From Prasinococcaceae sp. CCMP 1430 (taxonomy: Eukaryota > Prasinodermophyta > Palmophyllophyceae > Prasinococcales > Prasinococcaceae), in assembly GCA_013416795.1 (NCBI GenBank), contig RQSC01000018.1, positions 144,593-208,592 on the forward strand: 64,000 nucleotides of DNA, in the 5' to 3' direction. The position numbers were made by a program, and so were the translations under genes. Of this stretch, positions 3,479 to 19,079 are shown piece after piece; position 1 is the first letter of the stretch; each line of letters begins with the position of its first letter. The notes under the pieces were generated by a model that searched no databases, was not told the origin of the DNA, and saw only the letters and a program-made list of their open reading frames with translations.

Positions 3479-5187
3479 TTAGATGGCCTTGCTCAGCTGC
3501 GCGTGGGCGAGCGTGGGCGAGTCATCGGCATTGGCGGCGTGGTGGGTGTAGAGCGAGAGCGCAGTAAACGCGGCTGAAACGCAGAACACCTTGTCGAACA
3601 GCCTGTGGAAGTGCTCGAAGGGCACGTCGCCGCCCATGGCCTCCTCGATGGCGAGCCTGTGGTCGTCACGCAAGTTAACGCGGATGAGCAGCACGCTCGA
3701 CAGGAAATACAAGCCCATGATCTCAGTGACGAAGAGCAGAAGCGACGTCGTGCCCGCCACCCCACGCACCGCGGCCGTGCCACCGGCCAGTCGCGCCACC
3801 CTCATTGAGGTCACGGCGAAGCGCCGCAGCGAAAGGACCGTCAGTATGCCGATGAGCGCCAGGCTGCACCATTGCGCGATGGCCTTGGCCTGCTCCTTGG
3901 ATAATTGCAGCCCGCCGAGGGATCCAACTGCCGCCAGTGAGCGCGTGAGCGTGATCACGGGATCCGATATCTGGCCAGAGTCGCCGAAGAGCACGTTCTT
4001 CATGCTCAGCAGCACTCGGCCCGCGCAACACAGCGCTCCGATGCCGAGCAGCGCGGTCCACACCTGGGAGGGCGTCGCGTGTCGCGGCGCGCCGGTCAGT
4101 GATGCGGCACGTTTTGAGGGGTGCGCGCGCGCTCTGTGGGCAGTCGCATGTGAGGGTGTGTTCACACAGGCGCACGCACCATTCCCAGGGCCGAACGAGC
4201 CTGCTGCGTCCGCTCGTGCGCCTCGTGGAGCTCGGCAAGCTCGAGAAAAGCCGTGCGGCTTACGTCCTCGAGCATCACAGCCTCACGCTCGAGCTGCTCC
4301 GCGCTCGCTCGCTCTCGGGCGGCCGCGCTGCGGGCCCCACCGCGAACGAGCTTCGTCACGCGCCTGAGCGAGCCGAAGATGCCCCCCTTGGACAGTCTCC
4401 CGTCCGCGCCGCCCGAGTCGCCGTTGCCCCCATTAAGCCTGCTTGCCTGCGCGAGCGCGCCAACGCGGCGCTCCTCGCGTCGCGCGAGCGCTGCCCGCCT
4501 CCTCTTGGCGGCGACGCTCTCCATGCAGTTGCGCACGCGCGCTGTCGCAGCAGCCACTTCGATCTCGCTGACGCGCTGCTTGAGTCGATACAGGTACTGC
4601 ACGGGCAGGTTGACCGCTCCGAAGCCCGAGAGCACAGCCAGCAGCAGCACGCCCACGACGCTCAGGCGTGACACAGCCTGCGCCGTTGAAATCAGCGGGC
4701 CGTCGGGCGTTGGGAAGTACCAGCCGACGGCGAGCAACGACGCGAGGCATCCCAGCGTCGCAATCGCGGCACCCGCGAGCGCGCGCGTCGTCCGCACCCC
4801 TTCGAGGCGCAGCGCGAGAAACGCGTGCGCCGCCGGCAGCGCGCCGGCGAGGAGGACGAGCAGGAGCGACACGTGCAGGCGCCACGCGACCGCGCGTGCG
4901 TGCGGAGGCAGCGTTCCAGTCACCTCGTAGAGGACGAGGGTGAGAAGGTCCGTCGCGCATGCGAAGGTCGCGACGAAGGCTGCACGCGCCGCCGCCGTCG
5001 CCGGCTTGCCGGAGGCAGCCTCGAGCGCCGGCGACAGTTTCTCCCGCAGGAAGAGCGCTCCGACACAAGCGAGCGCAGCGGGCGGCCCGACCGTCTGCGC
5101 CGCGCATAGCAGGCCCGGCAGCGCGCCGCCATCGCCGCCGCCGCCAGATTGCGCGGACATCTCCTTCACCCCCAGCGCGGAGTCCAT
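3479..5187 (-). CDS. GPHR: Golgi pH regulator / GTG-type multi-pass membrane protein
   Basis: Two exons on the minus strand: 5187-4180 and 4063-3479, with the intron 4179-4064 (GTGCGT..CAG, phase 0). The product is about 530 residues. The family (GPHR in animals, GTG1/2 in plants) forms an anion-conducting channel that controls Golgi acidity. Exon 1 carries the signature SVVGVLLLAVLSGFGAVN followed by PVQYLYRL. Exon 2 carries MGLYFLSSVLLIRVNL and FEHFHRLFDKVFCVSA near the C-terminus; both match the family ends closely. A charged, coiled-coil-like segment lies between them (about residues 195-335), as in homologues. The ATG at 5187 (MDSALGVKEM) is used because the longer frame opens only at GTG. 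The region is convergent with the desaturase gene, with about 186 bp between stop codons. Confidence 0.85.
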
Positions 5188-6223
5188 TGTGCCAGCCGTG
5201 GACGTACGCTGCCCCCGCACCACGCTCGCCCCCCCGGCCCCTCTCCTCGCCCCTTGTCACGCCGCAGCGCTCCCGACCTCGTGTCGTGGCGCGCACCTCG
5301 CCCACTCCGCACCGCGCGCGCGCGAAGAGCGCGCGCAGTGTGGCATGCTGCAGCATCGCCCCCCCACCCCCCCACCCTGCCTCGCCCCCTGGTCGGGCCC
5401 GCCTGCAGCGCAGCAGCGGCGCAGCGCATCCGGTGCTGTTCGGGTTCGGAACCCGCCACAAACAAGCACAATTTCAGTTTGGGTTGCAGCGCGCACTCGT
5501 GAATTTTGGGCCACGTTTTGGTCATGCGATTCGATGGTGTACCATCACGATGGCAGGCTGCAGGAGTGGAAGTTTGCGAGACTGGCCCAAATCGCCTTCA
5601 TTTTGTACTGCAAGACAGACGCGAACCGATCCTGATCCTCATTAGGCGGTGGGGGAAAAAAAAACTTTTTTTCCCGCCACGGGGCGAAGGCGGTGAGGGG
5701 ATGGCGGCGGCGGCGAGCGGCGGCGCCTCCCCCTCTTTCCCCCTCCCCCTCGCCCCCTTCCTCCCCCCCGCTCCCGACCAGGATGGCGAGCGACGGGTAG
5801 AGTGGGGGCGGTAGCGAGGGCAGGGGTGGCGGCGGCGCGCCGGGCGCGCGTCGTTGCGCTGCGAGAGCGCCGCGGCCGCCGCCGGGGGAGGGGGGGGCGG
5901 GGCCGTACGTGGCTCAGCGCACCCCGCGCGTTTTTCGCGTGAGCATTTTTCGAACTGCTGGTGGCGATGCGTGCGCGGTGCAGGGCGGGGCGGAGTTGCG
6001 TGCCACACCTGCGCGGGCGCGCGCGGGCGCCGGAGAGGGCGGGGGATGGCGATGGCGTGGACGCCCCGGCGTCCGCGCTTGCGTACTTGTTGCCGGTGGT
6101 GGTGATGAAGATGTCGCCGGTCTCGCCGCACGCGGCTGCCGCGCGGACGGGTGCGCGTGCACGGGCAGGGGAGCGCGCCGTTCGAAAAGCGCCGAGCGCA
6201 TCGCGGCAGCGGCGGCGGGCGCG
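5188..6223. other. Divergent promoter region, GPHR / HIRA
   Basis: About 1 kb between two divergent genes with no conserved coding sequence. It contains an inverted repeat of A and T tracts flanked by G and C runs at about 5646-5678, poly-C runs near 5360 and 5765, and a run of G near 5885. It likely carries both promoters. Confidence 0.5.
5646..5678. promoter_or_regulatory. A-tract/T-tract inverted repeat with an E2F-like site
   Basis: A GGCGG-flanked run of A meets a run of T ending in TTTCCCGCC (5670-5678), which matches the E2F/DP consensus. It sits about 550 bp upstream of the HIRA start in a divergent promoter. The inverted repeat could also be a nucleosome-excluding tract. The functional reading is inference. 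Confidence 0.3.
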
Positions 6224-9145
6224 ATGCACGTCTTCAAGCCGGCGTGGGTGGCGCATGAGGGGACGCCGATCTTCTCGGTGGATCTGTCGTCCGATGGCGC
6301 GCGGTGTGCGACCGCGGGCAGCGACCAGAAGATCAAGGTGTGGGCGATGGCACCGATCCGCGACGCGCGCGCCGAGGCCGATCCGCAGGGCACGCCCAAG
6401 CTCCTCGCGGTGCTCGACTCACACATGGGCAGCGTGAACGTGGTGCGCTGGTCGCACTCGGGGCGCTTCTTGGCCAGCGGCGCCGACGACAAGTGCTGCC
6501 TTGTATACGCACTCCGCCCGGGTGGTGCTGCTGCGCGCTTCGGCGCGGCCGAGGGCGAGGGCGGCATAGAGAACTGGAGGGTCGTGCGTACTCTGCGCGG
6601 CCACGCTGCCGACGTGACCGACCTGGCCTGGGCGCCTGACGACGCGCTGCTGGCGACGTGCTCGGTCGACAACACGGTGCGCGTGTGGGATGGCGAGGGC
6701 GCGCTTGTGGCGACGCTGCAGGGGCACGCCAGCCTGGTGAAGGGCGTGTGCTGGGACCCGATCGGAACGTACCTCGCGACGCAGAGCGATGACAAGAGCG
6801 TGATCGTGTGGAAGACGGAAGATTGGACGCCGGCCAAGAGCATCCGGGGCCGATTCGAGAAGAGCGCCGGCTCGAGCTTCTTCCGGCGGCTGCACTGGTC
6901 GCCTGACGGGGATGCGCTCGTGTGCCCGCACGCCTACCAGCAGCCGTCGCACACAGCGACCGTGCTCGATCGCTCCGACTTCGAGTCGAAGTTCGACCTG
7001 GTCGGGCACAAGCAGCCGGTCGTGGCGGTGCGATTTTCGCCGTCGATTTATACGCGCAAGGGTGCGGAGAGCGCAGGGCAGCACTTCACGGTCATCGCCG
7101 TCGGCTCGAAGGATAACAAGATGACCATCTGGACCACTGGCAAGACCAAGCCGCTGGCCATCGTGCGCGACTGCTTTGAGCAGAGCATCGTCGACATCAG
7201 CTGGGGGCGCAAGGGCGACAGACTCATGGCCGCAAGCCTAGATGGAACCGTCACTTACATCGAGTTCGGCAAGGAGGAACTCGGAACGCCGCTCGCGGCG
7301 GATAAACACGAGGAGTACCTCGCTGAGAAGTATGGCGTCCGCAAGAAGGGGCTGTCCTTCACAGCGTCGCCCGCGCTGGTCGCGCTTGAGGCAGAGGCCG
7401 CCCAAGTCGCGCCCGTGAAGGTCGAAGGCAAGCCCAAGACCAAGCCGAATGCGTCCGCGGGAGAGCAGAAGAAGGCGCCCAGGCGCATCACGCCGATGGC
7501 GGTGGGGAACGGCGCAGCCAACGGCGCGGCCAACGGCGCGGCCAACGGCCCGGCCAACGGCGCGGCCAATGGCGAGGCCAACGGCGAGGCCCATGGCGCC
7601 GCAAATGGCGCTGGCCTCCCCAATGCCACGGCCACACCCGCCAACGGCTCGTCACCCAAGCCAGCTCCGGCCGCCAAGCCTGCGCAGCGCGCGCCAAGTG
7701 CGGCGGCCATCAGCGCGGCGCTTCGCAGGCAACAGCAGGAGTACCGAGCTCCTGATGGCAAGCGGCGCATCGTGCCTATCCCCACCGACGGCGGCTCGCA
7801 GCCCGGTGTGCCGTTTGACGCGCCGGGGACCGACGCGGGCGGCGGCGGCGCGATGGCTCAACACCAGGCAGCGCGGCAGGTTATACCGTCACCGAGCCAG
7901 ACCATGTCTGGAGGCCACATTCACGAGACGCCCGCGGCCAAACGCGTGAAGTACGGCCACGCCGCCGCGCCTGTGCTATTGGCACCTCCGGTCGCCGATG
8001 GTGAGGCCCCCATGGTGCCCTTCCACGTCCCAGAGACTTTGACGGCCGAGTTGAAGGCGATGGCGGAGGCACAGGGGGGGGTCCCCGGGGAGGCCGCGCT
8101 GGTGCTGCACGTCGCGAATCAGCGTGCTGCGCAGAGCGGCCGTTCCGGCAGCTGCGAGGTGCGAGTCACTCGAGGCGCCGAGGTCCTGTGGAAGGACTCG
8201 GTGTCGTCGACGGCCATCTCGGTTGCCGGAAACGCTCGGGTTGCGGCGATCGCGTGCCAGGATGGATCGCTGCACTGCTACACTGCTGCTGGTGGAAGGA
8301 GGCTCACCTGCCCGCTCATGCTTGGGGCTCCCGTCACGATGCTTCGTTTCGCGCGCAAGGGCAACGAGCTCACATTGCTCACGCTTACCTCGGCCGGCCG
8401 CCTGCGAGTGATTGACCTCAAGGCGATGAGGACGACAGCGGACGTGGAGGTGAGCTCGCTCCTCGGGGAGGAGGGCGTCGGTGTCATCGACGCCTCACTG
8501 TCGCGCACGGGCGTGCCCACTATCACGCTTTCCTCCAGGCGCGTATACGCACTGCACGCGGGCGTGGGCTGCTGGCAGCGCGTGGTAGACGCGCAGGCAT
8601 TCGAGCATTCCTCGTTTGCGTCTGTTCTGGCGCCCGCGGCGGATGCTGAGGGTGCCGATGCGCGCGAGGTGGGGGCACTGGAGGCGGGCGCGCGTGGAGG
8701 CAAGTCGCCGCAGCTGCGCAGGGCGCTGCTCGGCACCAGCGCAAAGAAGCACCAGGAGGAGACGACCCGCCACCTCGAGACGCTCATGGCGGCTGCTCTG
8801 TCGATGGACTCGCCCGCCGAGTACAAGGACTGGCTGCGCGCGTACGCCTCGAATCTGGCTGCGGCAGCAGAGGGGGACCGGTTGAAGGAATTCTGCCAAG
8901 AGCTGCTGGGGCCGCCGCATGTTGGCAACGAAGGCGACTCTGACTGGTCGCCGTGGGTGCTGGGCATGCATTCCCGTCACCTCGTGCGCTTCGTGGTGCT
9001 GCCGGCGATGGCGAAGAGCCATGAGATGCAGCGGCTCGTGCTCGAGATAAAGGACGAGGTCGACGAGCTCTACAAGCGGCACGGCACGCCGCCCGCGGGG
9101 AGGGACCCAGGCGCCGGCGTCACGGCAAGACCGGTGGGGAGCTGA
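6224..9145 (+). CDS. HIRA: HIRA histone H3.3 chaperone
   Basis: Intronless, 973 residues from the ATG at 6224 (MHVFKPAWVAHEG), which matches the conserved HIRA N-terminus; the upstream open frame is not conserved. HIRA deposits H3.3-H4 independently of replication with its partner ASF1 and the UBN and CABIN subunits. The N-terminal WD40 propeller covers about residues 1-390, with repeats such as GHAADVTDLAWAPDDALLATC. The B domain has two candidate ASF1-binding motifs: RRITP at 420-424 and KRRIVP at 513-518. Between them is an Ala-Asn-Gly repeat (about 430-461). The C-terminal Hira domain starts near residue 642 (EVLWKDSVSS) and runs to about 870. Length is close to the human protein (about 1017). 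The link to chromatin fits the neighbouring AlkB-CXXC-SRA gene, but no operon-like coupling is implied. Confidence 0.93.
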   Translation: MHVFKPAWVAHEGTPIFSVDLSSDGARCATAGSDQKIKVWAMAPIRDARAEADPQGTPKLLAVLDSHMGSVNVVRWSHSGRFLASGADDKCCLVYALRPGGAAARFGAAEGEGGIENWRVVRTLRGHAADVTDLAWAPDDALLATCSVDNTVRVWDGEGALVATLQGHASLVKGVCWDPIGTYLATQSDDKSVIVWKTEDWTPAKSIRGRFEKSAGSSFFRRLHWSPDGDALVCPHAYQQPSHTATVLDRSDFESKFDLVGHKQPVVAVRFSPSIYTRKGAESAGQHFTVIAVGSKDNKMTIWTTGKTKPLAIVRDCFEQSIVDISWGRKGDRLMAASLDGTVTYIEFGKEELGTPLAADKHEEYLAEKYGVRKKGLSFTASPALVALEAEAAQVAPVKVEGKPKTKPNASAGEQKKAPRRITPMAVGNGAANGAANGAANGPANGAANGEANGEAHGAANGAGLPNATATPANGSSPKPAPAAKPAQRAPSAAAISAALRRQQQEYRAPDGKRRIVPIPTDGGSQPGVPFDAPGTDAGGGGAMAQHQAARQVIPSPSQTMSGGHIHETPAAKRVKYGHAAAPVLLAPPVADGEAPMVPFHVPETLTAELKAMAEAQGGVPGEAALVLHVANQRAAQSGRSGSCEVRVTRGAEVLWKDSVSSTAISVAGNARVAAIACQDGSLHCYTAAGGRRLTCPLMLGAPVTMLRFARKGNELTLLTLTSAGRLRVIDLKAMRTTADVEVSSLLGEEGVGVIDASLSRTGVPTITLSSRRVYALHAGVGCWQRVVDAQAFEHSSFASVLAPAADAEGADAREVGALEAGARGGKSPQLRRALLGTSAKKHQEETTRHLETLMAAALSMDSPAEYKDWLRAYASNLAAAAEGDRLKEFCQELLGPPHVGNEGDSDWSPWVLGMHSRHLVRFVVLPAMAKSHEMQRLVLEIKDEVDELYKRHGTPPAGRDPGAGVTARPVGS
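7511..7606 (+). repeat. 12-bp tandem repeat inside HIRA (Ala-Ala-Asn-Gly units)
   Basis: About eight imperfect copies of GGCGCGGCCAAC encode Asn-Gly-Ala-Ala repeats in the B-domain linker. Single-base changes give Pro, Glu and His variants. It keeps frame and is likely variable in copy number between strains. Confidence 0.85.
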
Positions 9146-9760
9146 CCCGAGCTTGACCTCGTAAGAGCTCTGTATTCTACTGCGCAAGGTCTCAGACCCG
9201 CGCGACCGGGGACGCTCGCACTTGCCTGCGCGCTCACCACGGGGCGGAGGATAAAAAGGTGCCAGCGCGCTCCATTCCCCAAAACACGGAACCAACCGTC
9301 GACCGCGGCACAAAAGCGCCTTGCATCCGAATGCACACGGACGGGCGCGACGCCGCGAAAGCGAAAGCGGATCTGCGAGCCCCGCACAAACCGACAAGAT
9401 CGCGGAGATCTTTCCCGAGGATATTTCGTGTAGGCGCGGACGGGAAAGGACGCACTGTCGAAACGACATACGTATCGGTTTTCTTTGGTTGGTTCTGACT
9501 TATGGCACCTGCGGCGGGCGGGGGTTCTGGGCTGCCCGCAACAACCGTCCTCGCTGGCGCGCGCGACGCTTTCCCCCCGACCCCAACCCCCCCACACAGC
9601 ACGCGTGCGCGCCGCAGCGGGGCGGGGCAGGGAGGGGCCGAGGTGGCGCCGCGGGACGGGGAGGTGGGGCGAGTGGGCGTGGGACGGTGCGGCCCTGCGC
9701 GCGGCCCGGGGTTTGGGTGGGTGGGGGCTCCCGCCGCGGGCGCTTCGGCCGCACGGCGCG
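9146..9760. other. Intergenic region upstream of the AlkB fusion gene
   Basis: Holds the 3' end of HIRA and the presumed promoter of the AlkB fusion gene. It contains a TATA-like ATAAAAAG at 9251-9258, one of the few AT-rich elements in the window. The frame of the downstream gene is open back to 9485 but starts there with no conserved sequence. No other gene is visible. Confidence 0.4.
9251..9258 (+). promoter_or_regulatory. TATA-like element ATAAAAAG
   Basis: A good TATA-like match in very GC-rich surroundings, about 500 bp before the AlkB fusion ATG. If used, the 5' UTR would be long, or the transcript could start with a non-coding exon. No transcript evidence is available. Confidence 0.3.
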
Positions 9761-12700
9761 ATGGCGCCCGGGGCCGCGGCTGTAACCGCCGCGAAAGCGA
9801 TGAGCTGGGAGCTGGTGACGGACGTGCCGGCGCCTGCGGCCGGCGGGGGCGGTTGCGGCGGCGAGTCGGTGGTCGCGACGATCCCATCGGAGGAAGTGGC
9901 GGCCGCCGCAGCCCTCGCGATGTCGGCGTTGGAGAGGGCAGGGCCCCGAGACGGCGAGAGAGACGAGCCTGGCGAGGGCGGCGCGCCCTCGCCGCCATGC
10001 AAGAGGCCGCGCGCGAGAGGCTACTACCGTTCGCCCGCGCTCGGAAGGCTGATGGCCATCGAGTGCGACGCAGAGGCGGTGCTGGTGGCCGAACGTCGAG
10101 AGCGCGACCGCGGGAGGCGTACTGTTTTCGCAGCCGCGCGTCCAGACGGGACAGCATTCGAAGACGTCGACGAGCCAACCGTTGAGGCCCCCGCGGCCTC
10201 GAGCGCACTGAAGCGGAGGGACGCGCGTGACATTGCTAGGCGCCTCGCCGTCGCCGCCCGCAGCCTGCGGCACGCGCAACCACCTGCAGACCCACTTAGT
10301 AGTGCCGTAGGCGCGGTGCTGCTCACCTCCCCACGCGTCGCGAGGCTCTGCGGTGCCATCGTGCACGTTCCAGGATGGATCTCGGCGGCGGACGGCGCCA
10401 CGTTGCTGTGCGCGATCGAGTGCGAGATCAACGCCCACGACGGGTGGCGGCAGGACATGCTCAACATACACGGGCAGAGGTGGCCTGAGCCGCGCCTAAA
10501 GGCATTCTTCGGCTGCAGGAGCTACGTGTACCACGGCGTGACCATGGAGGCGCGCACAATGCCGCCCGTCCTTGCCGCCGTCACACGCGCGGTGAACACG
10601 ACCTGCGGCACGAGGCACAACAGCGTGATGGCCACACTCTACCGCAATGGCTCGGATGCCATCAGCTTACACGCGGATGACGAGCCCTGCCTGGGAGACA
10701 AGACCGAGTCCTCTGTGACCAGCCTCAGCCTGGGAGACTCGCGCGTCTTCGCCATGAGCTCCCACGCGCTCGGCAGCGGCGCGCCCTGCGTGCGCGTCGA
10801 GCTCGCTGGCGGCGATCTGCTGCACATGGGCAAGGGCGTGCAGCACCACTGGAGGCACCGAGTCGACAAGACTGGCTGCAGGGTCGGTCGGCGGATCTCG
10901 CTCACATTTCGCACGATCGTCCACGGTGACATTGGCGTTGGCGGCTCCGGCGAAAGTGATGGCGTGGCAAGGGAAGACAAGGATGACATCGGCGGCGGTG
11001 GTACGTCGGAGGGGGCATGCCGCAGCGACCAGGACTGCCCTGACGTCAGTGCCGATGGGGCTGATAACGACGCGGGTAATGAAGATGGGGGGCAGATGGC
11101 GGAGGTCAGCTCGGCACCCGTGCCACTCCACCTGATGGTGCCGCTGCTGAGCCTGATCTCGCGATGTCAAAGCACAACGCGTCCGGCGCCCCACCTGCAA
11201 AGGGACGCGAGGGAGCACATCGCTGCTGACCCGCACCTGGCAGAGCTCGTGCCACCCTCTGTGCACGCGAGGCTCGGGCTTCCCCTGCGCCTGCCATCCA
11301 CGGCACCCTTTGTGCCCCAGACACCGGAGCCCGGCCATTTCGCCTCACCTGCAGCGAGCGGCGCGTCGCCCCCGTCCGCGTCACCTTCGCAGTCACTGCT
11401 CGCAAGCCCCCGTGCAGGTGCCGGAGCTGCAGCTGCATTTCGCGTGGATGCGGCGGGCGCGAGCGCTTTGACTACCAAGCCGAGGTGCGCGAGCGTTCCT
11501 TTGGTTCTGATGGGCGTTCGAAGGCCTACCTATCGCGCGGGGCGCGCGCGCACGAATGTGTACCCGCGTGTGCCCAAGTGTGGCGAGTGCGCGCACTGCC
11601 TGAAGCCCTCGCTCAAGAAGGCGTGTCTCACCAATCGCGAGCTCCTGCGCCAATCGCTGCTGGCGTGTGGCATTAGCCTCGACGCGGCACCTGGGGAGGC
11701 AGTGGGCGCCGCGGAAAAGATCGTGAACGCGTACAACGCCACTAAGTTCGCAATTGCCGATCCGTCGCAGGTGGTTGAGCTGCGTAGCTTCCCGCAGAAG
11801 AGCGTGCAGGCGCTCTGCAAGGCCGCCGAGGTGCCGGACAAGCCGGCAATTGCAGGTGGCGGGGGCTCGCTGGTGGGGGGCGCGGGGAGTGGGTACGCCG
11901 CAGTTAGTACCATGGCCGGCTGCGTGGATGACCGTGCGGGTGTAGGAGGGGTTGCGCACGGGCCTGGTCTTCACGCTGCTGATGGCGCAACAGAAGACGT
12001 CAACGAGCACGGAACTTCTGTGCGTGCGCCTGAGCGCCGGCGGCAGTTCTACGCGCCTCCCGACGCTTACTATGGCGACCCACCACCGAAGACGGGCGTG
12101 CGGGCGGGCGATGTTGTGGCTCTTGCAGACGCGTGGGGTCTCGGTCTGCATCGCTCGATGCGCCGCGGGATGACCGCGCGTCGATGGGGCCATCCCTCGC
12201 AGCCGTGGCCGTGCGAGAGCGTGAAGCTCTGCAGCGGGCAGAAGGACGCATTCAATGTGCGCACGGAGGACGCCAGCGTGGGCACAGCTGGTGGCGCATC
12301 TGGCACGGCTGCGTTGTCGCCAGCAGCGGCTCAGGGTGCGCTTCGCCACTACGTGGGCGACGGCTTCTACCAACGTAGGCCCAAGGGCATGGATGACGGT
12401 TGCCTCACATTTAGTGACGCATCCCTGCTGGCATCGGAGTGCTACGACGTGCCCGTTAGAATGGTGCACCTGCCGAACGGGGGCACGGGCGGCTGCATCT
12501 ACGGCGGCCTGTACTGGGTGCGCTGCCATTACTGCCTTTTCGATGGCATGGCCAAAGAGCTGCGCTTCCGACTGACCTTCGTCTTACAACGTGTGACAGC
12601 GGGCAAGGATGCGAGCGTGGCGGCTGCGCGTTGCGAGGCGATCAACGCGAGGCTTCGACCTGTCCAGGAGCTGGAGAGGCGGACCGGCCGGCTGGTGCCC

Positions 12701-12862
12701 GTCGGTGAGGGCATGCGAGAGATACTTGCGAGCGCACGCAGCGAGCGGAGCGCTCCGCCACCGGTTGCTGCGCTCACGCGCGACATCGCGGTCAAATTTG
12801 CGATCGAGAGCGTCGTAGCGAGGACCTTGCTGGCGGTTGGCGAGCTTGCGGGCGAGCAGTGA
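9761..12862 (+). CDS. AlkB-family dioxygenase fused to CXXC-like zinc motif and SRA/YDG-like domain
   Basis: Intronless, 1033 residues from the ATG at 9761 (a second ATG lies at 9800). Residues about 190-385 form an ALKBH2/3-like 2-oxoglutarate, Fe(II) dioxygenase: the iron ligands are His304 and Asp306 (ISLHADDEP) and His366 (HHWRHRV), and the 2OG-binding arginines lie in RRISLTFR. Such enzymes oxidise N-methyl groups on DNA or RNA bases. At 607-622 is a compact cysteine cluster, CGECAHCLKPSLKKAC, resembling half of a CXXC finger, the CpG reader of MLL, DNMT1 and TET. Residues about 770-950 resemble an SRA/YDG domain: GVRAGDVVALADAWGLGLHRS, then PVRMVH, GGLYWVRCHY and FRLTFVLQ. SRA domains read modified cytosine. 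Linkers are acidic or low-complexity. The AlkB call is firm; the SRA and CXXC calls rest on motif resemblance. A role in base demethylation or repair on chromatin is inferred. Confidence 0.75.
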   Translation: MAPGAAAVTAAKAMSWELVTDVPAPAAGGGGCGGESVVATIPSEEVAAAAALAMSALERAGPRDGERDEPGEGGAPSPPCKRPRARGYYRSPALGRLMAIECDAEAVLVAERRERDRGRRTVFAAARPDGTAFEDVDEPTVEAPAASSALKRRDARDIARRLAVAARSLRHAQPPADPLSSAVGAVLLTSPRVARLCGAIVHVPGWISAADGATLLCAIECEINAHDGWRQDMLNIHGQRWPEPRLKAFFGCRSYVYHGVTMEARTMPPVLAAVTRAVNTTCGTRHNSVMATLYRNGSDAISLHADDEPCLGDKTESSVTSLSLGDSRVFAMSSHALGSGAPCVRVELAGGDLLHMGKGVQHHWRHRVDKTGCRVGRRISLTFRTIVHGDIGVGGSGESDGVAREDKDDIGGGGTSEGACRSDQDCPDVSADGADNDAGNEDGGQMAEVSSAPVPLHLMVPLLSLISRCQSTTRPAPHLQRDAREHIAADPHLAELVPPSVHARLGLPLRLPSTAPFVPQTPEPGHFASPAASGASPPSASPSQSLLASPRAGAGAAAAFRVDAAGASALTTKPRCASVPLVLMGVRRPTYRAGRARTNVYPRVPKCGECAHCLKPSLKKACLTNRELLRQSLLACGISLDAAPGEAVGAAEKIVNAYNATKFAIADPSQVVELRSFPQKSVQALCKAAEVPDKPAIAGGGGSLVGGAGSGYAAVSTMAGCVDDRAGVGGVAHGPGLHAADGATEDVNEHGTSVRAPERRRQFYAPPDAYYGDPPPKTGVRAGDVVALADAWGLGLHRSMRRGMTARRWGHPSQPWPCESVKLCSGQKDAFNVRTEDASVGTAGGASGTAALSPAAAQGALRHYVGDGFYQRRPKGMDDGCLTFSDASLLASECYDVPVRMVHLPNGGTGGCIYGGLYWVRCHYCLFDGMAKELRFRLTFVLQRVTAGKDASVAAARCEAINARLRPVQELERRTGRLVPVGEGMREILASARSERSAPPPVAALTRDIAVKFAIESVVARTLLAVGELAGEQ

Positions 12863-12959: not shown

Positions 12960-13739
12960 TTAGAGCTCCTCTTTCTTGTGGTCGCCATCGCTGGCGCCGG
13001 ACGCGCCGCCCGCCCACGCGAGCTTGAGCGTCGCCTCCATCGCGTCCGCGATCTGACCCACGTGCGTATAGTAGTACGGATAGTTCTTGTTGCCGTCTGT
13101 GTTGGTGAGCTCGGGGTGTGGCGTGCCGTCCGCAGACAAGAAGATGACGCGCGGCACGTAATCCGCGCCGCCCGGCTGCAGTCGTTTGTCCTCGTGCGGC
13201 ACTCTCGCACTGGCCGGAATTTTGAACAGCACCTGGCTGCGAGTCTTTGCCCGCCCGCCAGCGTCAGCATCGGAGACTGACACCATTGTGAAGCTCCGGC
13301 TGAGCGCTGCGAAACGCGCATACTCGGCCTCGTCCTTCTCGAACGTGGCCTTGAGGCTTTTGCACGCGCCGCAGTAGCCACGGTGCACGAGCGCCAGAAT
13401 TGGCTTCTCGCCCACCTCGCTCGTTGCATTCGCGAACGACATCCATTCCACCCCATCACCAGGCACGTTGGACACCCACTCGTCTCCGCTGTCCTCCGCC
13501 GCCACCCCAGCCGCGGCGAGCGCGACGAGCGTCCGGCGCCCCGTTTGGCGCGCCCCTTCGCGCGCGCTCGCGCAGAGCGCCCGCGGCCGCGCCCACGCGC
13601 TGCCATCCACGTCATCCACGCCATCGCTGCTGCGACGCCGCGGTCGGACGCCGACGCTTCCCGCCCACCCGCGCGTGCCACCCGCAGTGCGTGCAGTGTG
13701 GCGTCGCCGCGCTCCCGCCGCCCGCGATGACCATGTCAA
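12960..13739 (-). CDS. TXNDC12: TXNDC12/ERp18-like ER thioredoxin with KEEL retention signal
   Basis: The conserved part reads GYCGACKSL (active site CGAC), then YVPRVIFLSADG with the cis-proline, then PELTNTDGNKNYPYYY, ending in HKKEEL. This is the TXNDC12/AGR family of ER oxidoreductases, and KEEL is a variant of the KDEL retrieval signal. A hydrophobic stretch (RRTLVALAAAGVAA) just before the mature region looks like a signal-peptide core. The N-terminus is not resolved: the open frame begins at TTG (13739) and the first in-frame ATG lies inside the domain, so either an upstream exon or a base error is missing. There is an extra loop of about 25 residues after the active-site helix compared with animal proteins. 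The gene is convergent with the AlkB fusion, with under 100 bp between stop codons. Confidence 0.75.
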   Translation of the reverse strand: MTWSSRAAGARRRHTARTAGGTRGWAGSVGVRPRRRSSDGVDDVDGSAWARPRALCASAREGARQTGRRTLVALAAAGVAAEDSGDEWVSNVPGDGVEWMSFANATSEVGEKPILALVHRGYCGACKSLKATFEKDEAEYARFAALSRSFTMVSVSDADAGGRAKTRSQVLFKIPASARVPHEDKRLQPGGADYVPRVIFLSADGTPHPELTNTDGNKNYPYYYTHVGQIADAMEATLKLAWAGGASGASDGDHKKEEL

Positions 13740-14113: not shown

Positions 14114-15479
14114 CTATTCGACAGACACGAATCCCCCCGAACCGGCCACGCGCGCCTTGTCTCGGACCAGGTCGTGGTGCCAGACGAGCGGCGGCGTCTC
14201 GCTCGCCGTGTCGGACAGCTTGACGCTTACGCTGTCCACCGGCACGTGGACCTCATACTCATAGGCATTGCCGTCGGCAGCCATCACCACAAGCCGCACG
14301 GCAGCGGCCTTGCGCTCGCTTTGGGCGTGCCACTCGGGCACGCCGAAGGAGCCGTCGGGCCACGTCAGGGCGCACAGCTTCGGAACGCGCCCGGACGGCA
14401 GCCGCACGATGACTGCCGCTGCAGGGGGCTCCACAGCGTCCACCAGCCGCTCGGGCACCACACCTGCCGAAGCGGCTGCGGTGAGAGCACCGCGTGCCCA
14501 TCTCCGCAGCTTCGCAGCTGCGGCACCGGCAGCGGCCGCTGGGCCGTCGCCACCATCGTCCTGAATACGACTGGCGCTCACACCACCCTCCGCTCTTCTG
14601 GCCTCGCCAGCTCCGGGGTCCATGCGAAATACGTGCACTGAGCCTGAGTCAGAGGTCGCAGCCAACAGCCGCGTACCGCCCGCCTCCGGAGCGGGCGAGA
14701 AGGCGAGTGCGCACACCATGGCTGGCTGTCGTCCACGCCGGAAGGAGGCGACGCGCTGAGCCGTGCGAACGTCAAAGACGCGCACGATGGTGCCCTTCGA
14801 ACTCGCCGTCGCCAGCAGCGCAGCCGACGCGTCTGGTGCGAACGCGAGCGCCGACACCCGCGACTTGTGCGCGTGCACCTCGCCGAGCACCTCGAGCCGT
14901 TCAGTGTCATAGAGCAGCACGGCCCCAGGTCGTGCGTCGGCAGCCGGTAGCGCGAGCACGCCGGTGTCGCTAATCGCGCAGAGTCCATCCGCGTCGCACG
15001 CACACGGCACGCGCGCGAGCTCCGCCTGGGTCTCGAGCGAGTACACGCGCGCCTCGCCAGGAGTGAGCGCGACCACTGCGGTGCGTGTCAGCCTTACGGC
15101 GGTCACCCTTGCTCCCACGCGCATGGCCACCACGCCCTCGGGGTCACTTTCGGCCGCTGCAGCGTCGCGAAGCACGAGTGTGCGCGGCGAAGGTCCCTCG
15201 ACGCCCTCGGCGTCGCGCCCTCCGGCCCCTACATGCGCGAGAAGGTTTGTGGGCGGCAGGCACTCAGCGACGCTCACTGCTCCGCCCTCGAACACGAAGC
15301 GCGGCCGCGGCGGGGCCGCGGCGCTACGCCCGCGGAGCAGCGCGCGGCGCGCGTGCACCGCGAACCGCGAAGCCGCGCGCGCCGCGCGCAATGAGCAGCG
15401 ACGCGTCGGGCGCCAGGGCCAGCGCCGCGGGCGAGTCCACGCCACCGCCCAGCGCGCCTCCGCCCGCCCCCCGGCCCAT
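14114..15479 (-). CDS. ATG18: ATG18/WIPI PROPPIN, autophagy phosphoinositide-binding beta-propeller (frame break)
   Basis: A seven-blade PROPPIN that binds PtdIns3P and PtdIns(3,5)P2 at autophagic and endosomal membranes. Signature features: FEGGAVSVAECL with LLAHVGAGG, VHAHKSRVSALAFAPD, TIVRVFDVRTAQRVASFRRG with the lipid-binding FRRG motif, and the end PLVWHHDLVRDKARV. The first blade (SPAALALAPDASLLIARGARGF) is read from the ATG at 15479 in one frame, while everything from FVFEGG on is in the next frame. The switch must occur near 15375-15350 and needs one extra base, or one missed short intron; no good GT..AG pair was found. This looks like an assembly indel in very GC-rich sequence, but a true frameshift cannot be excluded. 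The loop before the C-terminal blade is long and Ala-rich. About 450 residues. Confidence 0.75.
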
Positions 15480-15929
15480 GCTTCCAGGCGCCGCGCGCGC
15501 TCTGCCACGCGTGCGAATTCTGTCTTTTCGTACATCTGCTCGCGCGCGCGCATCCAAAAAAGCGCACTGCCGCGCTCGCACGCGCCAGAGCGTGTGGGAG
15601 CATCGGGCTCTTCATGGCGGCGCTCACATCCCGAGAGGAGAGCAATGAGGCAGTTGAGAACACCGTTCTCGCCAGCAACAGCGACGGGGACAGCGCTGCT
15701 GAGTGCGACGCCCTCAGCAGCGACGTGGAGTCCCACGACGGCGAGGAAGAGCTCGCCGGGGATGGCGACGCCGGACCGCTCAATTGCCATCTGCAAGTGG
15801 GCGAGCAGCGCATGGTGCGTGGGCGCAGGCACGCGCGCTCGCGCTGAGGGACACTGCGTGTAATACAAAGAAGGTGTAAATAGTGCCGCAGGTGCATCAC
15901 ACGCGCGCGGTGAGCTCGCGCGCTCTGAT
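15480..15929. other. Intergenic region between ATG18 and SLP phosphatase
   Basis: About 450 bp between two minus-strand genes. Both strands are open in one frame for much of it, but neither translation is recognisable (see the rejected 77-residue plus-strand frame). Probably the ATG18 promoter and the phosphatase 3' UTR. Confidence 0.35.
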
Positions 15930-17009
15930 TCACCAGTTGTCGTCCGACGGCTTCCCGTCGAGCTGGGGCTTGGCGGCGAGGACCTGCACTTTGCCGCCAG
16001 CGGCGATCTCGAGTACCTGCGGCGTGCCACTGAAGATGCCCCTACTCATGCCCACGTCGATGCGCCACACGCGCCCGTCACACGAAGCATTTGCGCCGCC
16101 TTCCTGCGGCGTGTGCCCCACCACCATTCGCTTCGCCCCGGTCGCCTCGAGCACGCTGCTCAGGTCGTTGCAGACGGACTCGTTGCTGGCACGGCCGTAC
16201 ACGCGCGTCCAGTACACGCCACCGTCGCCGTTGATGACCTGGCCCGGGAGCTTCCCGACGCCGCTCATCCACGCCGCCATGTCATAGTTTACTTTTTCGA
16301 GTCCGTACGCCACGTGCTGCGGGAGGACGCCCGCGTGCGCGAAGAGCGTGTCGTCGATCTGTAGCACCGTCGGGTTGGTCGCGAGCGCCATCGCGAGCGG
16401 ACCGCCCGGCGCGAACAGGGCGAAGCGCGCCTCGGCTGCGGCGGTGAGCGTCCAGGGATCGCCCTCGGGGCGCGGACCCTGCGTCTCCTCGATGTACATT
16501 GCCGTCTCGCGGAACCCTCCCAGCGTCACATAGCGGAAGTCCCCCATTACGTTCATCGCCTCGTGGTTGCCGTGCAGCATGAACACGTCGCCGCCAGCTT
16601 CCTGCGCCTCCTCGCGCAGCGACGCGAACAGGCCGAGGAGGCGCAGCTCATCATCGCCACGGTCAAGAATGTCGCCGACCTGAACGAGGAGCGTGTCACC
16701 GCCCGTCCACTTTGGCATCTCGGTCATCACGACGCCAGTCCCCTGTTCGGCGCCCGCGCTCGCCACAGCTGCGTCCGCGTCCTCCTGAGAGACCACGCCC
16801 GCCAGCGCTAGCGCGCGCAGCGCCTGCGCCCAGTCGCCGTGCATATCTCCGATGGCGACGGCGCGGCGGCCTCGCGACTCGACGTGCAGAGGAGGCGTCG
16901 CGACGGGCAGCGGAGTCGGCTCTGGCGGCGCCTTCGCCGCCGCCGCAGGGTCAACGTCCTGGAACGCCGCCGCCGCGCACGCCAGCAGGCCGCCGCGGCG
17001 AGTCGCCAT
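15930..17009 (-). CDS. Shewanella-like protein phosphatase (PPP family)
   Basis: Intronless, 359 residues from the ATG at 17009. It is a metallophosphoesterase of the PPP superfamily. Metal and catalytic motifs are in order: GDMHGDW (about 50), VGDILDRGDDE (about 113), LHGNHEAMN (about 145), FAHAGV (about 220) and VVGHTPQEGG (about 300). The DRGDDE form and the HTPQ motif fit the bacterial-like SLP group found in plants, algae and apicomplexans, not PP1 or PP2A. The N-terminal 45 residues are Ala/Pro-rich and could be a plastid or secretory leader; plant SLP1 is plastidial. The 218-N assembly gap lies only 57 bp upstream, so an additional 5' exon cannot be excluded. Substrates are unknown. 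Confidence 0.85.
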   Translation of the reverse strand: MATRRGGLLACAAAAFQDVDPAAAAKAPPEPTPLPVATPPLHVESRGRRAVAIGDMHGDWAQALRALALAGVVSQEDADAAVASAGAEQGTGVVMTEMPKWTGGDTLLVQVGDILDRGDDELRLLGLFASLREEAQEAGGDVFMLHGNHEAMNVMGDFRYVTLGGFRETAMYIEETQGPRPEGDPWTLTAAAEARFALFAPGGPLAMALATNPTVLQIDDTLFAHAGVLPQHVAYGLEKVNYDMAAWMSGVGKLPGQVINGDGGVYWTRVYGRASNESVCNDLSSVLEATGAKRMVVGHTPQEGGANASCDGRVWRIDVGMSRGIFSGTPQVLEIAAGGKVQVLAAKPQLDGKPSDDNW

Positions 17010-17918
17010 CGGCGCCGCGCCGCCACCCCTGACGCCGCAGCGCCGCCCGTGCGCGAGCTGCGCCTGNNNNNNNNNNNNNNNNNNNNNNNNNNNNNNNNNN
17101 NNNNNNNNNNNNNNNNNNNNNNNNNNNNNNNNNNNNNNNNNNNNNNNNNNNNNNNNNNNNNNNNNNNNNNNNNNNNNNNNNNNNNNNNNNNNNNNNNNNN
17201 NNNNNNNNNNNNNNNNNNNNNNNNNNNNNNNNNNNNNNNNNNNNNNNNNNNNNNNNNNNNNNNNNNNNNNNNNNNNNNNNNNNNCGCGCGCGCGGCCACA
17301 CGCGCCGCCGCCGCCCCCCCGCCCGGCCGCCGATCCACATCACACACCAACCAATTCCACACTGACGAGATTCCGTAAGTACCAAACAGGATATGTGCAG
17401 AATGTAGTCTATCGTGCGGAGAGTACCATCCGATGGCACGTACTCGCTATTTAGAGAGAGACGGCACAGACACGGTCCGCACGGCTGCCACCGGCGGGGA
17501 GTGTGTGGCGAATCGGAATCGAATGCGGAACGCGGCGGTGCGCAGACTCTAGAATCGAATTGATGCCTGGTATCGCGAGCGTCGACCGGACGCGCGCGCG
17601 GGGCCGGCCCCGTTCGCGCGCGCGACGCGCGCGCGCGGCTTTTGATGGCGTTTCGGAGAGGCGGGGGGCCGTACGGCCCGGCGGCGGGCGCAAGCGAGGG
17701 GGGGGGGAGGGGGGGCGCTGAGATGGTCCCATCACACGAGGTAGTACCACCATGGCGCAGCTCTGCAGGCGACCATCGACGGCGGCGGGCTGGGCGCGTG
17801 CAGCTCGGCGGCGCGGCATCTCGTGGGACGCGCACGCCGCCCGAGGTGGTGGCCTGCTCGTGGCGGACTCATCTTGCTATTTGCTAGTACTACGTCTGGT
17901 CTAACGTGCGTCCACGCC
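17010..17918. other. Intergenic region containing an assembly gap
   Basis: Lies between the SLP phosphatase start and the ADAT2 3' end, both on the minus strand. Apart from the gap, the sequence from about 17340 to 17560 is relatively AT-rich and shows no conserved coding sequence. A poly-G run is near 17699-17713. Confidence 0.4.
17067..17284. other. Assembly gap of 218 N
   Basis: A run of undetermined bases. The true size is unknown. It may hide the promoter or a 5' exon of the SLP phosphatase. Confidence 1.
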
Positions 17919-18676
17919 TCACTCGTCGCCAGCGGGGGCGCCTGTGGCAGCCACGACTGCTGGCGCCTTCGGTCGGTGCGGCCGCGGCGCGCGTGGATTG
18001 CCCATGACGTAGAAGTCGCGCAGAAGGTCAACCGCCTCCTCGGCGAAAAAACCGCCGTGCGCCTCGTACGTGCCCGCACGCCAGCCTCCGGCGCTGGCGC
18101 CGGCGGGCGGCTCGCCAGCACACGGGCCCACGCCTGCAAGCGCGCGAGCGCGACAGAGAGGGTGCGGAGCGGCACGTCCGTGCTGCAGTCGTCAGCTGGC
18201 GGCAAGCACTCTCGACGCTCGAAAAGGGGGGGCGGCGGCTGGCGCGCATGTCGCTCGCACGCACCCTCCTCGTGCACGCGCAGGATCGATCCACACCCGC
18301 CAAACTTGTCGTTCGGGCACCCGTAGAAGACACGCTTGAGGCCTAGCGCAGAGAGTGCAGCGGCGCACATGATACACGGCTCGACGCTGACGAAGAGCTC
18401 GACGTCAGCGAGCAGCTGTGCGGCAGCCGGGCCGCCTGCGGCGGCCGCGGCGGCCCGTTCGGCATCGGCGGCGAGCAGCGCATCGACTGCCTCCAGCTCC
18501 GCGTGGCGTGTCCCATCCTTGCTTGCGTTCGTGCGGTTTGCGCCCACGGCCAGCACACCATCCCCATCCCCGTCCCTAGCCCCGCCCTTCCCCCCATCCT
18601 CCAGCGCGAGCACGCAGCCGACAGGCGCTCGCCGCGCGTGAGCTGCTTGGTGGCGCCAAAGTCGATCAGTCACCAT
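17919..18676 (-). CDS. ADAT2: tRNA-specific adenosine-34 deaminase catalytic subunit (ADAT2/TAD2)
   Basis: Two exons: 18676-18265 and 18133-17919, with the intron 18264-18134 (GTGCGT..CAG, phase 1). About 208 residues. ADAT2 with ADAT3 converts A34 to inosine in tRNA anticodons. The zinc site and proton donor are present: HAELEA and [11 protein letters not shown]. The following [15 protein letters not shown] matches ADAT2 closely. The C-terminal helix motif [20 protein letters not shown] comes from exon 2 and joins in frame after VHEEG, confirming the intron. The ATG at 18676 is used; the longer frame opens only at GTG. The N-terminal helix is poorly conserved and an insertion rich in Gly and Asp (about residues 28-40) precedes the HAE motif, so the exact N-terminus is uncertain. 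Confidence 0.88.
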
Positions 18677-19079
18677 CGCCGCCGCGCCCTCGCGCCCTCG
18701 CGTTGCCGCGCCCTCGCGTGGCCGCGCCGCTCGCACCGCGCGCCGGGCGAGATGTGGCGAGGGCTCGCTGGCGCTGGTACGACCGGATATTTGGAGGGCG
18801 GCGTTCTTCTCACTAGGTCATGTGCGAGAACGCTCACGCTGCTGAAGCCGACAGCGGGCACGCCACTCGGCGCGCGGCGTTCCCGACACCCGACGTGCAC
18901 CCTCTTTGCACACCGCCCCCTCGCAGGCCTTCCCGCCGCCGGCACGAGCACCCACATCACTGCACGCTCCCGCCTTGCGACCGCTGCCGCCGCCTGCGCA
19001 GCAGCTTCGAGCAGGCGCCGTGCTTCCAGGGCGGGCGCACGGGGGGGGCGCCCGCTCTGGACGCGGTCGGGACGCAGAC
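18677..19079. other. Divergent promoter region
   Basis: About 400 bp between the divergent ADAT2 gene and the small mitochondrial membrane protein gene. No coding sequence recognised. Confidence 0.4.

Follow-up and report, generated by a model that had tools for sequence, protein, structure and literature searches.

An AlkB-type dioxygenase fused to a four-cysteine finger and a divergent SRA domain in a prasinodermophyte alga

The human DNA dealkylases ALKBH2 and ALKBH3 have been solved as the AlkB dioxygenase alone, in constructs of 202–250 residues, and SRA domains are joined to SET, RING or nuclease modules in SUVH4/5/6, UHRF1 and TagI-type proteins. The ZF-CxxC finger, as found in TET1/3, DNMT1, KDM2 and MLL1, has eight cysteines and two zinc ions as its defining features (PMC3685328). 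Here, we describe a gene in a 64,000-nucleotide stretch of DNA from the tiny marine green alga Prasinococcaceae sp. CCMP 1430 (contig RQSC01000018.1; the whole stretch is called the window below), the product of which, P0001, is predicted to combine an AlkB dioxygenase, a half-CXXC finger and an SRA domain. Each of these parts belongs to a known class, and it is their order that is the new element. Searches of open-access publications for AlkB with SRA and/or CXXC, a scope outside which subscription papers mostly fall, including the surveys by the Aravind group as the likeliest source, gave no paper on such a fusion. The passages of PMC11065753 and PMC11244446 that bear on these domains likewise describe none.

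The translated frame runs from ATG to stop without interruption and encodes 1033 residues, in agreement with the original prediction for this locus, which was made by a model from the sequence alone. The residues named in that prediction lie where it had placed them, in the dioxygenase (His304, Asp306, His366 and RRISLTFR at 377–384), in the finger (CGECAHC...KKAC at 607–622) and in the SRA region (GVRAGD at 779–784, GLH at 795–797, PVRMVH at 898–903 and GGLYWV at 915–920). The principal features are:

9761..12862, + strand: AlkB / half-CXXC finger / SRA fusion, single open frame (P0001; PRCOL_00000148 locus), 1033 amino acids
10361..10912, + strand: AlkB-type 2-oxoglutarate-Fe(II) dioxygenase, residues 201–384 (PF13532, 6.2e-18; best solved relatives ALKBH3 and ALKBH2)
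10670..10684, + strand: HADDE, residues 304–308, with iron ligands His304 and Asp306 and the DDE common to ALKBH2/3
10856..10858, + strand: third iron ligand, His366, by alignment
10889..10912, + strand: RRISLTFR, residues 377–384, 2-oxoglutarate-binding arginine region, by alignment
11537..11650, + strand: conserved four-cysteine module, residues 593–630
11579..11626, + strand: C-x2-C-x2-C-x8-C, residues 607–622, CGECAHCLKPSLKKAC, predicted single zinc site, half of a ZF-CxxC
12092..12595, + strand: divergent SRA domain, residues 778–945, from profile comparisons and a model
12233..12250, + strand: changed base pocket, SGQKDA instead of GGYEDD, residues 825–830, by alignment

At 67% GC, the window is rich in long open frames, several of which cannot be genes. 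This frame is more than chance because of (i) a relative, P0004, (ii) a near-identical copy from ENA contigs, P0002 (98% identical, with 17 differing places, 3 of them inside the three blocks), and (iii) an independent single-gene model, P0003 (EukProt PRCOL_00000148-RA, presumably from Prasinoderma coloniale), which covers AlkB, finger and SRA and is identical to P0001 at all shared residues. As the same fusion appears in all three, it is independent of any one assembly or gene caller. A chance frame or a pair of genes was ruled out by the order kept in P0004 and by the single gene model, each of which holds all three blocks, and the assumption of one gene therefore stands.

P0004 derives from assembled contigs labelled 'lgn' (12 member sequences, 3 contigs), which we take to be metagenomic, and carries the dioxygenase, the four-cysteine finger and the SRA domain in the same order as P0001. 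The two proteins are 45% identical in the best local alignment, which covers 51% of the query, and 52% identical in the full alignment. This identity is unevenly distributed: it amounts to 68% in AlkB (136/200 aligned residues), 67% in the four-cysteine module (24/36) and 69% in the SRA domain (115/166) against 23–43% in seven segments outside the blocks. Such near-equal conservation suggests that the blocks evolve as one unit. Among the proteins scored, this order was encountered only in P0001, P0002, P0003 and P0004. A whole-protein search of the contigs of the genome (24.5 Mb, 145 contigs) returned P0001 alone, which excludes only a close second copy, because other AlkB genes found by the Pfam model were missed by this search too.

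The dioxygenase of P0001 matches PF13532 with 66.2 bits (cut-off 31.2) and that of P0004 with 47.3 bits. All 16 solved chains matched in a PDB search with P0001 are ALKBH2 or ALKBH3, with which it shares the dioxygenase domain, the iron and 2-oxoglutarate ligands and the HxDDE motif at 32–35% identity over 151 residues, and to which it adds the finger, the SRA domain and a tail. The HxDDE motif has a role in AlkB substrate choice. H304, D306, H366, R378 and R384 are invariant across four sequences, a set in which one gene is represented twice. The proposed assignment to an ALKBH2/3-type dioxygenase with its catalytic residues is thus borne out by Pfam, PDB matches and alignment. The genome holds 13 PF13532 matches including the fusion, 10 of them above the cut-off, and some are exons of one gene. 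Two of these loci are closer to ALKBH2 than to ALKBH3 (L009, 54 vs 27 bits over 87 residues; L010, 51 vs 38 bits), and the fusion therefore seems to be a specialised enzyme that exists in addition to these. One AlkB exon occurs with equal score at two places, L008 (C68) and L009 (C73), as a result of duplicated contigs or a recent duplication.

The four cysteines of the finger would suffice for one zinc ion, and the only part present appears to be the equivalent of the second ZF-CxxC zinc site, where two basic residues and a further cysteine come after CGxCxxC (KQAC in P0004). It differs from ZF-CxxC in having four cysteines rather than eight, in lacking the KFGG linker and, in P0001, in carrying KK for KQ. 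No Pfam family, zf-CXXC included, matched the finger piece at E ≤ 10 (HMMER filters on), and the sole zf-CXXC match in the genome is below the cut-off and located elsewhere than the fusion. A full ZF-CxxC was ruled out by the cysteine count, the absent Pfam match and the missing linker; what survives of the predicted CXXC-like finger is a module for one zinc, not the eight-cysteine, two-zinc domain. Type-1 ZF-CxxC fingers read CpG by KQ or RQ (PMC3685328). The corresponding position is KK in P0001, KQ in P0004, KK in L029 and RQ in L030, and CpG reading is plausible for some members. A genome search gave two further half-CXXC fingers. One, at residue 1436, is part of a 1752-residue frame (L111:3580-8835, − strand) that also contains an SNF2 ATPase and two chromodomain regions and includes a run of masked N close to its beginning; the other belongs to a frame of 626 residues in which no domain exceeds the cut-off.

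The SRA domain is recognised best when the two fused proteins are combined. A profile of the P0001 and P0004 domains matched 31 SRAs with 94% probability, the best of 200 shuffles reaching 8.5%, and we regard this shuffle-controlled comparison as independent sequence evidence. The same pair gave 19.8% against only the three SRAs of its own genome, which is not convincing without the larger set. In the opposite direction, the 31-SRA profile searched against four proteins gave E-values, valid for four sequences only, of 6.4e-9 for P0004, the SRA of which exceeds the Pfam cut-off, and 0.0035 for P0001. A predicted structure of the domain reached a mean predicted local distance difference test score (pLDDT) of 66 and a predicted TM-score of 0.67, and its fold is partly an input because 51 bacterial SRAs were included in its alignment. 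By homology and fold, the domain is recognisable as a divergent but genuine SRA. It resembles those of SUVH4/5/6, UHRF1 and TagI-type bacterial nucleases in its fold and invariant core residues and differs from them in being joined to AlkB and in having six extra residues at 809–814. Three canonical SRA frames are found elsewhere in the genome; SET accompanies the SRA in one of them (L004) and Agenet in another.

In UHRF1, 5-methylcytosine (5mC) is sandwiched by Tyr466 and Tyr478, Asp469 bonds it and Thr479 helps cytosine recognition (PMC5995235); the corresponding roles in SUVH5 fall to Tyr416, Tyr428 and Asp418 (PMC4740795). We mapped these residues onto the fused SRA by alignment and by their 12-residue spacing. 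The position of Tyr466 is taken by Gln827 in P0001, and by Gln also in P0004, and the two-aromatic sandwich is thereby incomplete, whereas its second tyrosine is kept as Tyr864. Asp469 and Thr479 are replaced by Ala830 and Val865, and Asp829, which aligns with SUVH5 Asp418, remains as an acid usable as in SUVH5. Gln827, Lys828, Asp829, Ala830, Tyr864 and Val865 are identical in P0004. The loss of the Asp469 equivalent is softened as an argument because this position is Val in SUVH5 and His in SUVH6 and because UHRF1 D469G bound hemimethylated DNA like wild type in one paper (PMC5012860). The firm deviation in the aligned pocket is the lost sandwich aromatic: a tyrosine occupies its position in six of the six solved SRAs compared (SUVH4, 5, 6, 9, UHRF1 and TagI) and a phenylalanine in UHRF2 (PMC4740795). 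The three other SRAs of the genome retain this tyrosine as well as an Asp equivalent to Asp469. Bacterial SRAs conserve the surrounding SG.YE.D motif in 51/51 cases, partly by construction, as one collecting pattern demands it. Taken from the alignment, the pocket of the fused SRA appears to be conserved and non-canonical rather than randomly decayed.

What is observed is one conserved protein that combines an AlkB domain with its catalytic residues, a finger of four cysteines and an SRA domain whose pocket is altered; its substrate, zinc binding, DNA binding and nuclear location, and the targeting role of the fusion, we infer. We propose, at about an even chance, that it is a nuclear ALKBH2/3-type N-demethylase with its own DNA-targeting arm, which removes N-methyl damage such as 1-methyladenine (1mA) and 3-methylcytosine (3mC) on chromatin. 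With Fe(II), 2-oxoglutarate and oxygen, the AlkB domain would demethylate the ring nitrogens of DNA bases, and ALKBH2/3-type N-demethylation of this kind is the safest step of the proposed mechanism. The half-CXXC finger and the divergent SRA would keep the enzyme on particular DNA or chromatin; this targeting role is suggested by the domain class, by its conservation and by the presence of the finger in a chromodomain-SNF2 frame. A plausible task would be the clearing of 3mC as a by-product of the several cytosine-5 methyltransferases of the genome, since DNA methyltransferase activity is reported as a source of 3mC (Rosic 2018, as cited in PMC8610418), a lesion that AlkB enzymes remove. The genome has 10 matches to such methyltransferases, 9 of them above the cut-off, at 7 places, and one of these frames carries a Pfam chromodomain (L019). 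With 19.8 bits, the tenth (L026) falls short of the cut-off and by eye resembles a different enzyme. L019 and L024 are related, chromomethylase-like DNA-methyltransferase frames, the likeness of L024 being judged by eye.

Several points weigh against this proposal. The AlkB subfamily appears unsettled by scores or tree: P0001 scores 70 bits with ALKBH3 vs 52 bits with ALKBH2, P0004 is a near tie (58.0 vs 58.8 bits), and an 11-sequence tree places the pair on its own branch (support 99) with ALKBH2 and ALKBH3 not separated (other supports 38–85). The genome also seems to have an ALKBH2 already (L009), and a further repair enzyme would not be strictly needed. The SRA of P0001 alone is weak, its excised piece scoring 15.8 bits vs the Pfam cut-off of 30.7 and 17% against the 31 SRAs, and SRA is not among the Pfam matches of whole P0001 at E ≤ 1; the predicted SRA/YDG-like region is therefore upheld by profile comparison with P0004 and not by its own Pfam score. 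For the complete C-terminal half, 458 residues modelled from four sequences, structure prediction gave a mean pLDDT of only 34.5, and the model was not used. For the finger, DNA or zinc binding is again something we infer, and a four-finger profile searched against PDB gave alcohol dehydrogenases as best matches (E 0.024) and KMT2B only at E 7.5. We attribute the match to the zinc lobe of alcohol dehydrogenases to the common C-x2-C-x2-C spacing and not to homology; the profile does not favour CXXC either. The loss of one sandwich tyrosine makes targeting to methylated cytosine doubtful, and 5mC reading by the fused SRA would be the weakest step of the mechanism. CpG is not depleted in the window (observed/expected 1.19; 1.13 in the gene), and heavy CpG methylation is thus not indicated for this stretch. 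The earlier suggestion that the SRA finds modified cytosine is accordingly doubtful.

The altered pocket lends itself to other readings. It could belong to an SRA adapted to a flipped base that is not 5mC, perhaps the substrate or the product of AlkB itself; a single lesion would then be both read and erased by the protein. We consider this fairly unlikely: Gln827, Lys828, Asp829 and Ala830 are the same in two proteins 45–52% identical overall, and the SRA core and Tyr864 are kept, but conservation does not reveal what is bound, retained Asp829 and Tyr864 could still allow weak 5mC binding, and we know of no SRA that reads ring-N-methylated bases. In a more specific form, which we hold to be quite unlikely, the rewritten SRA would flip and hold the N-alkylated base or the base opposite in cis, the fused AlkB would remove the alkyl group and the half-CXXC finger would park the protein on CpG-rich chromatin; it would then be, to our knowledge, the first eukaryotic SRA known to read something other than a 5-position cytosine mark. 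The same pocket, together with a finger that lacks half of CXXC and, in P0001, the KQ motif, might instead mean that the arm no longer binds DNA and serves protein–protein contacts or folding in an ordinary repair enzyme. This has a similarly low probability, as finger and SRA are conserved as strongly as the catalytic domain and a similar finger is present in the chromodomain-SNF2 frame.

Other alternatives concern the substrate. That the protein erases an epigenetic N-methyl mark, N6-methyladenine (6mA) or N4-methylcytosine (4mC), is unlikely in our view: chromatin-type modules are attached to its AlkB domain and the AlkB relatives ALKBH1 and ALKBH4 have been proposed elsewhere as 6mA demethylases (PMC11065753), but every solved chain matched is ALKBH2 or ALKBH3. 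Because these are the closest solved relatives and HxDDE is common to them, we rate 6mA or 4mC removal below that of 1mA and 3mC. MT-A70 had no match in the genome, and since control genomes gave none either, the negative does not count as a sign that it is absent. We hold it to be very improbable that the protein is TET-like and oxidises the methyl group of 5mC, given a catalytic domain that is AlkB and not TET/JBP and a 5mC pocket that is not intact, even though TET1 and TET3 have a CXXC-plus-dioxygenase layout (PMC11065753) and Tet_JBP is unmatched in the genome, as it is in the control genomes too. The original idea of a reader-eraser is thus supported for AlkB, SRA and the single gene and half supported for the CXXC-like finger, and the reading of modified cytosine is doubtful.

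Other features of the frame lie outside the three blocks:

9995..10036, + strand: basic stretch including CKRPRARGYYR, residues 79–92, resembling a nuclear localization signal by composition (6/14 residues identical in P0004)
11138..11392, + strand: linker stretch, residues 460–544, omitted by PRCOL_00000148-RA (255 nt, GT...AG, in frame; possible intron)
11486..11524, + strand: residues 576–588, also omitted by PRCOL_00000148-RA (39 nt, in frame; possible intron)
12599..12859, + strand: C-terminal tail, residues 947–1033, without a Pfam domain (33/85 aligned residues identical in P0004)

Both omitted stretches sit in the linker before the finger, outside every domain, and the fusion is unaffected by whether they are introns. 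Upstream of the ATG at 9761, the same frame remains open as far as a TTG at 9485. Directly upstream on the same strand, a HIRA/HIR1-like histone chaperone occupies 5909–9145 (+) of the window (Beta-prop_CAF1B_HIR1, 5.4e-59; Hira, 1.2e-29), and the fusion frame begins about 600 bases downstream of it. The remaining neighbours, all on the − strand, are a Golgi pH regulator N-terminal domain (4162–5223), a thioredoxin-like match below cut-off (12960–13739), a PROPPIN-like WD40 protein (14114–16030), a calcineurin-like phosphoesterase (15930–17009) and a deaminase-type zinc domain (17732–18736; PF14437, 2.6e-12; PF00383, 4.4e-12), perhaps of a tRNA adenosine deaminase. A run of masked bases lies at about 17067–17286, the whole window containing 219 N.

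In the fusion, a DNA dealkylase is physically linked to a member of a domain class whose usual role is the reading of DNA methylation. This arrangement may direct the repair or erasure of methyl groups to selected genomic sites, and the SRA pocket, changed yet conserved, is a lead to a new base-reading specificity. As a natural fusion in a free-living alga, the lineage of which diverged before Chlorophyta and Streptophyta (PMC7455551), it would allow the link between DNA methyltransferases, 3mC and AlkB to be tested directly at the molecular level.
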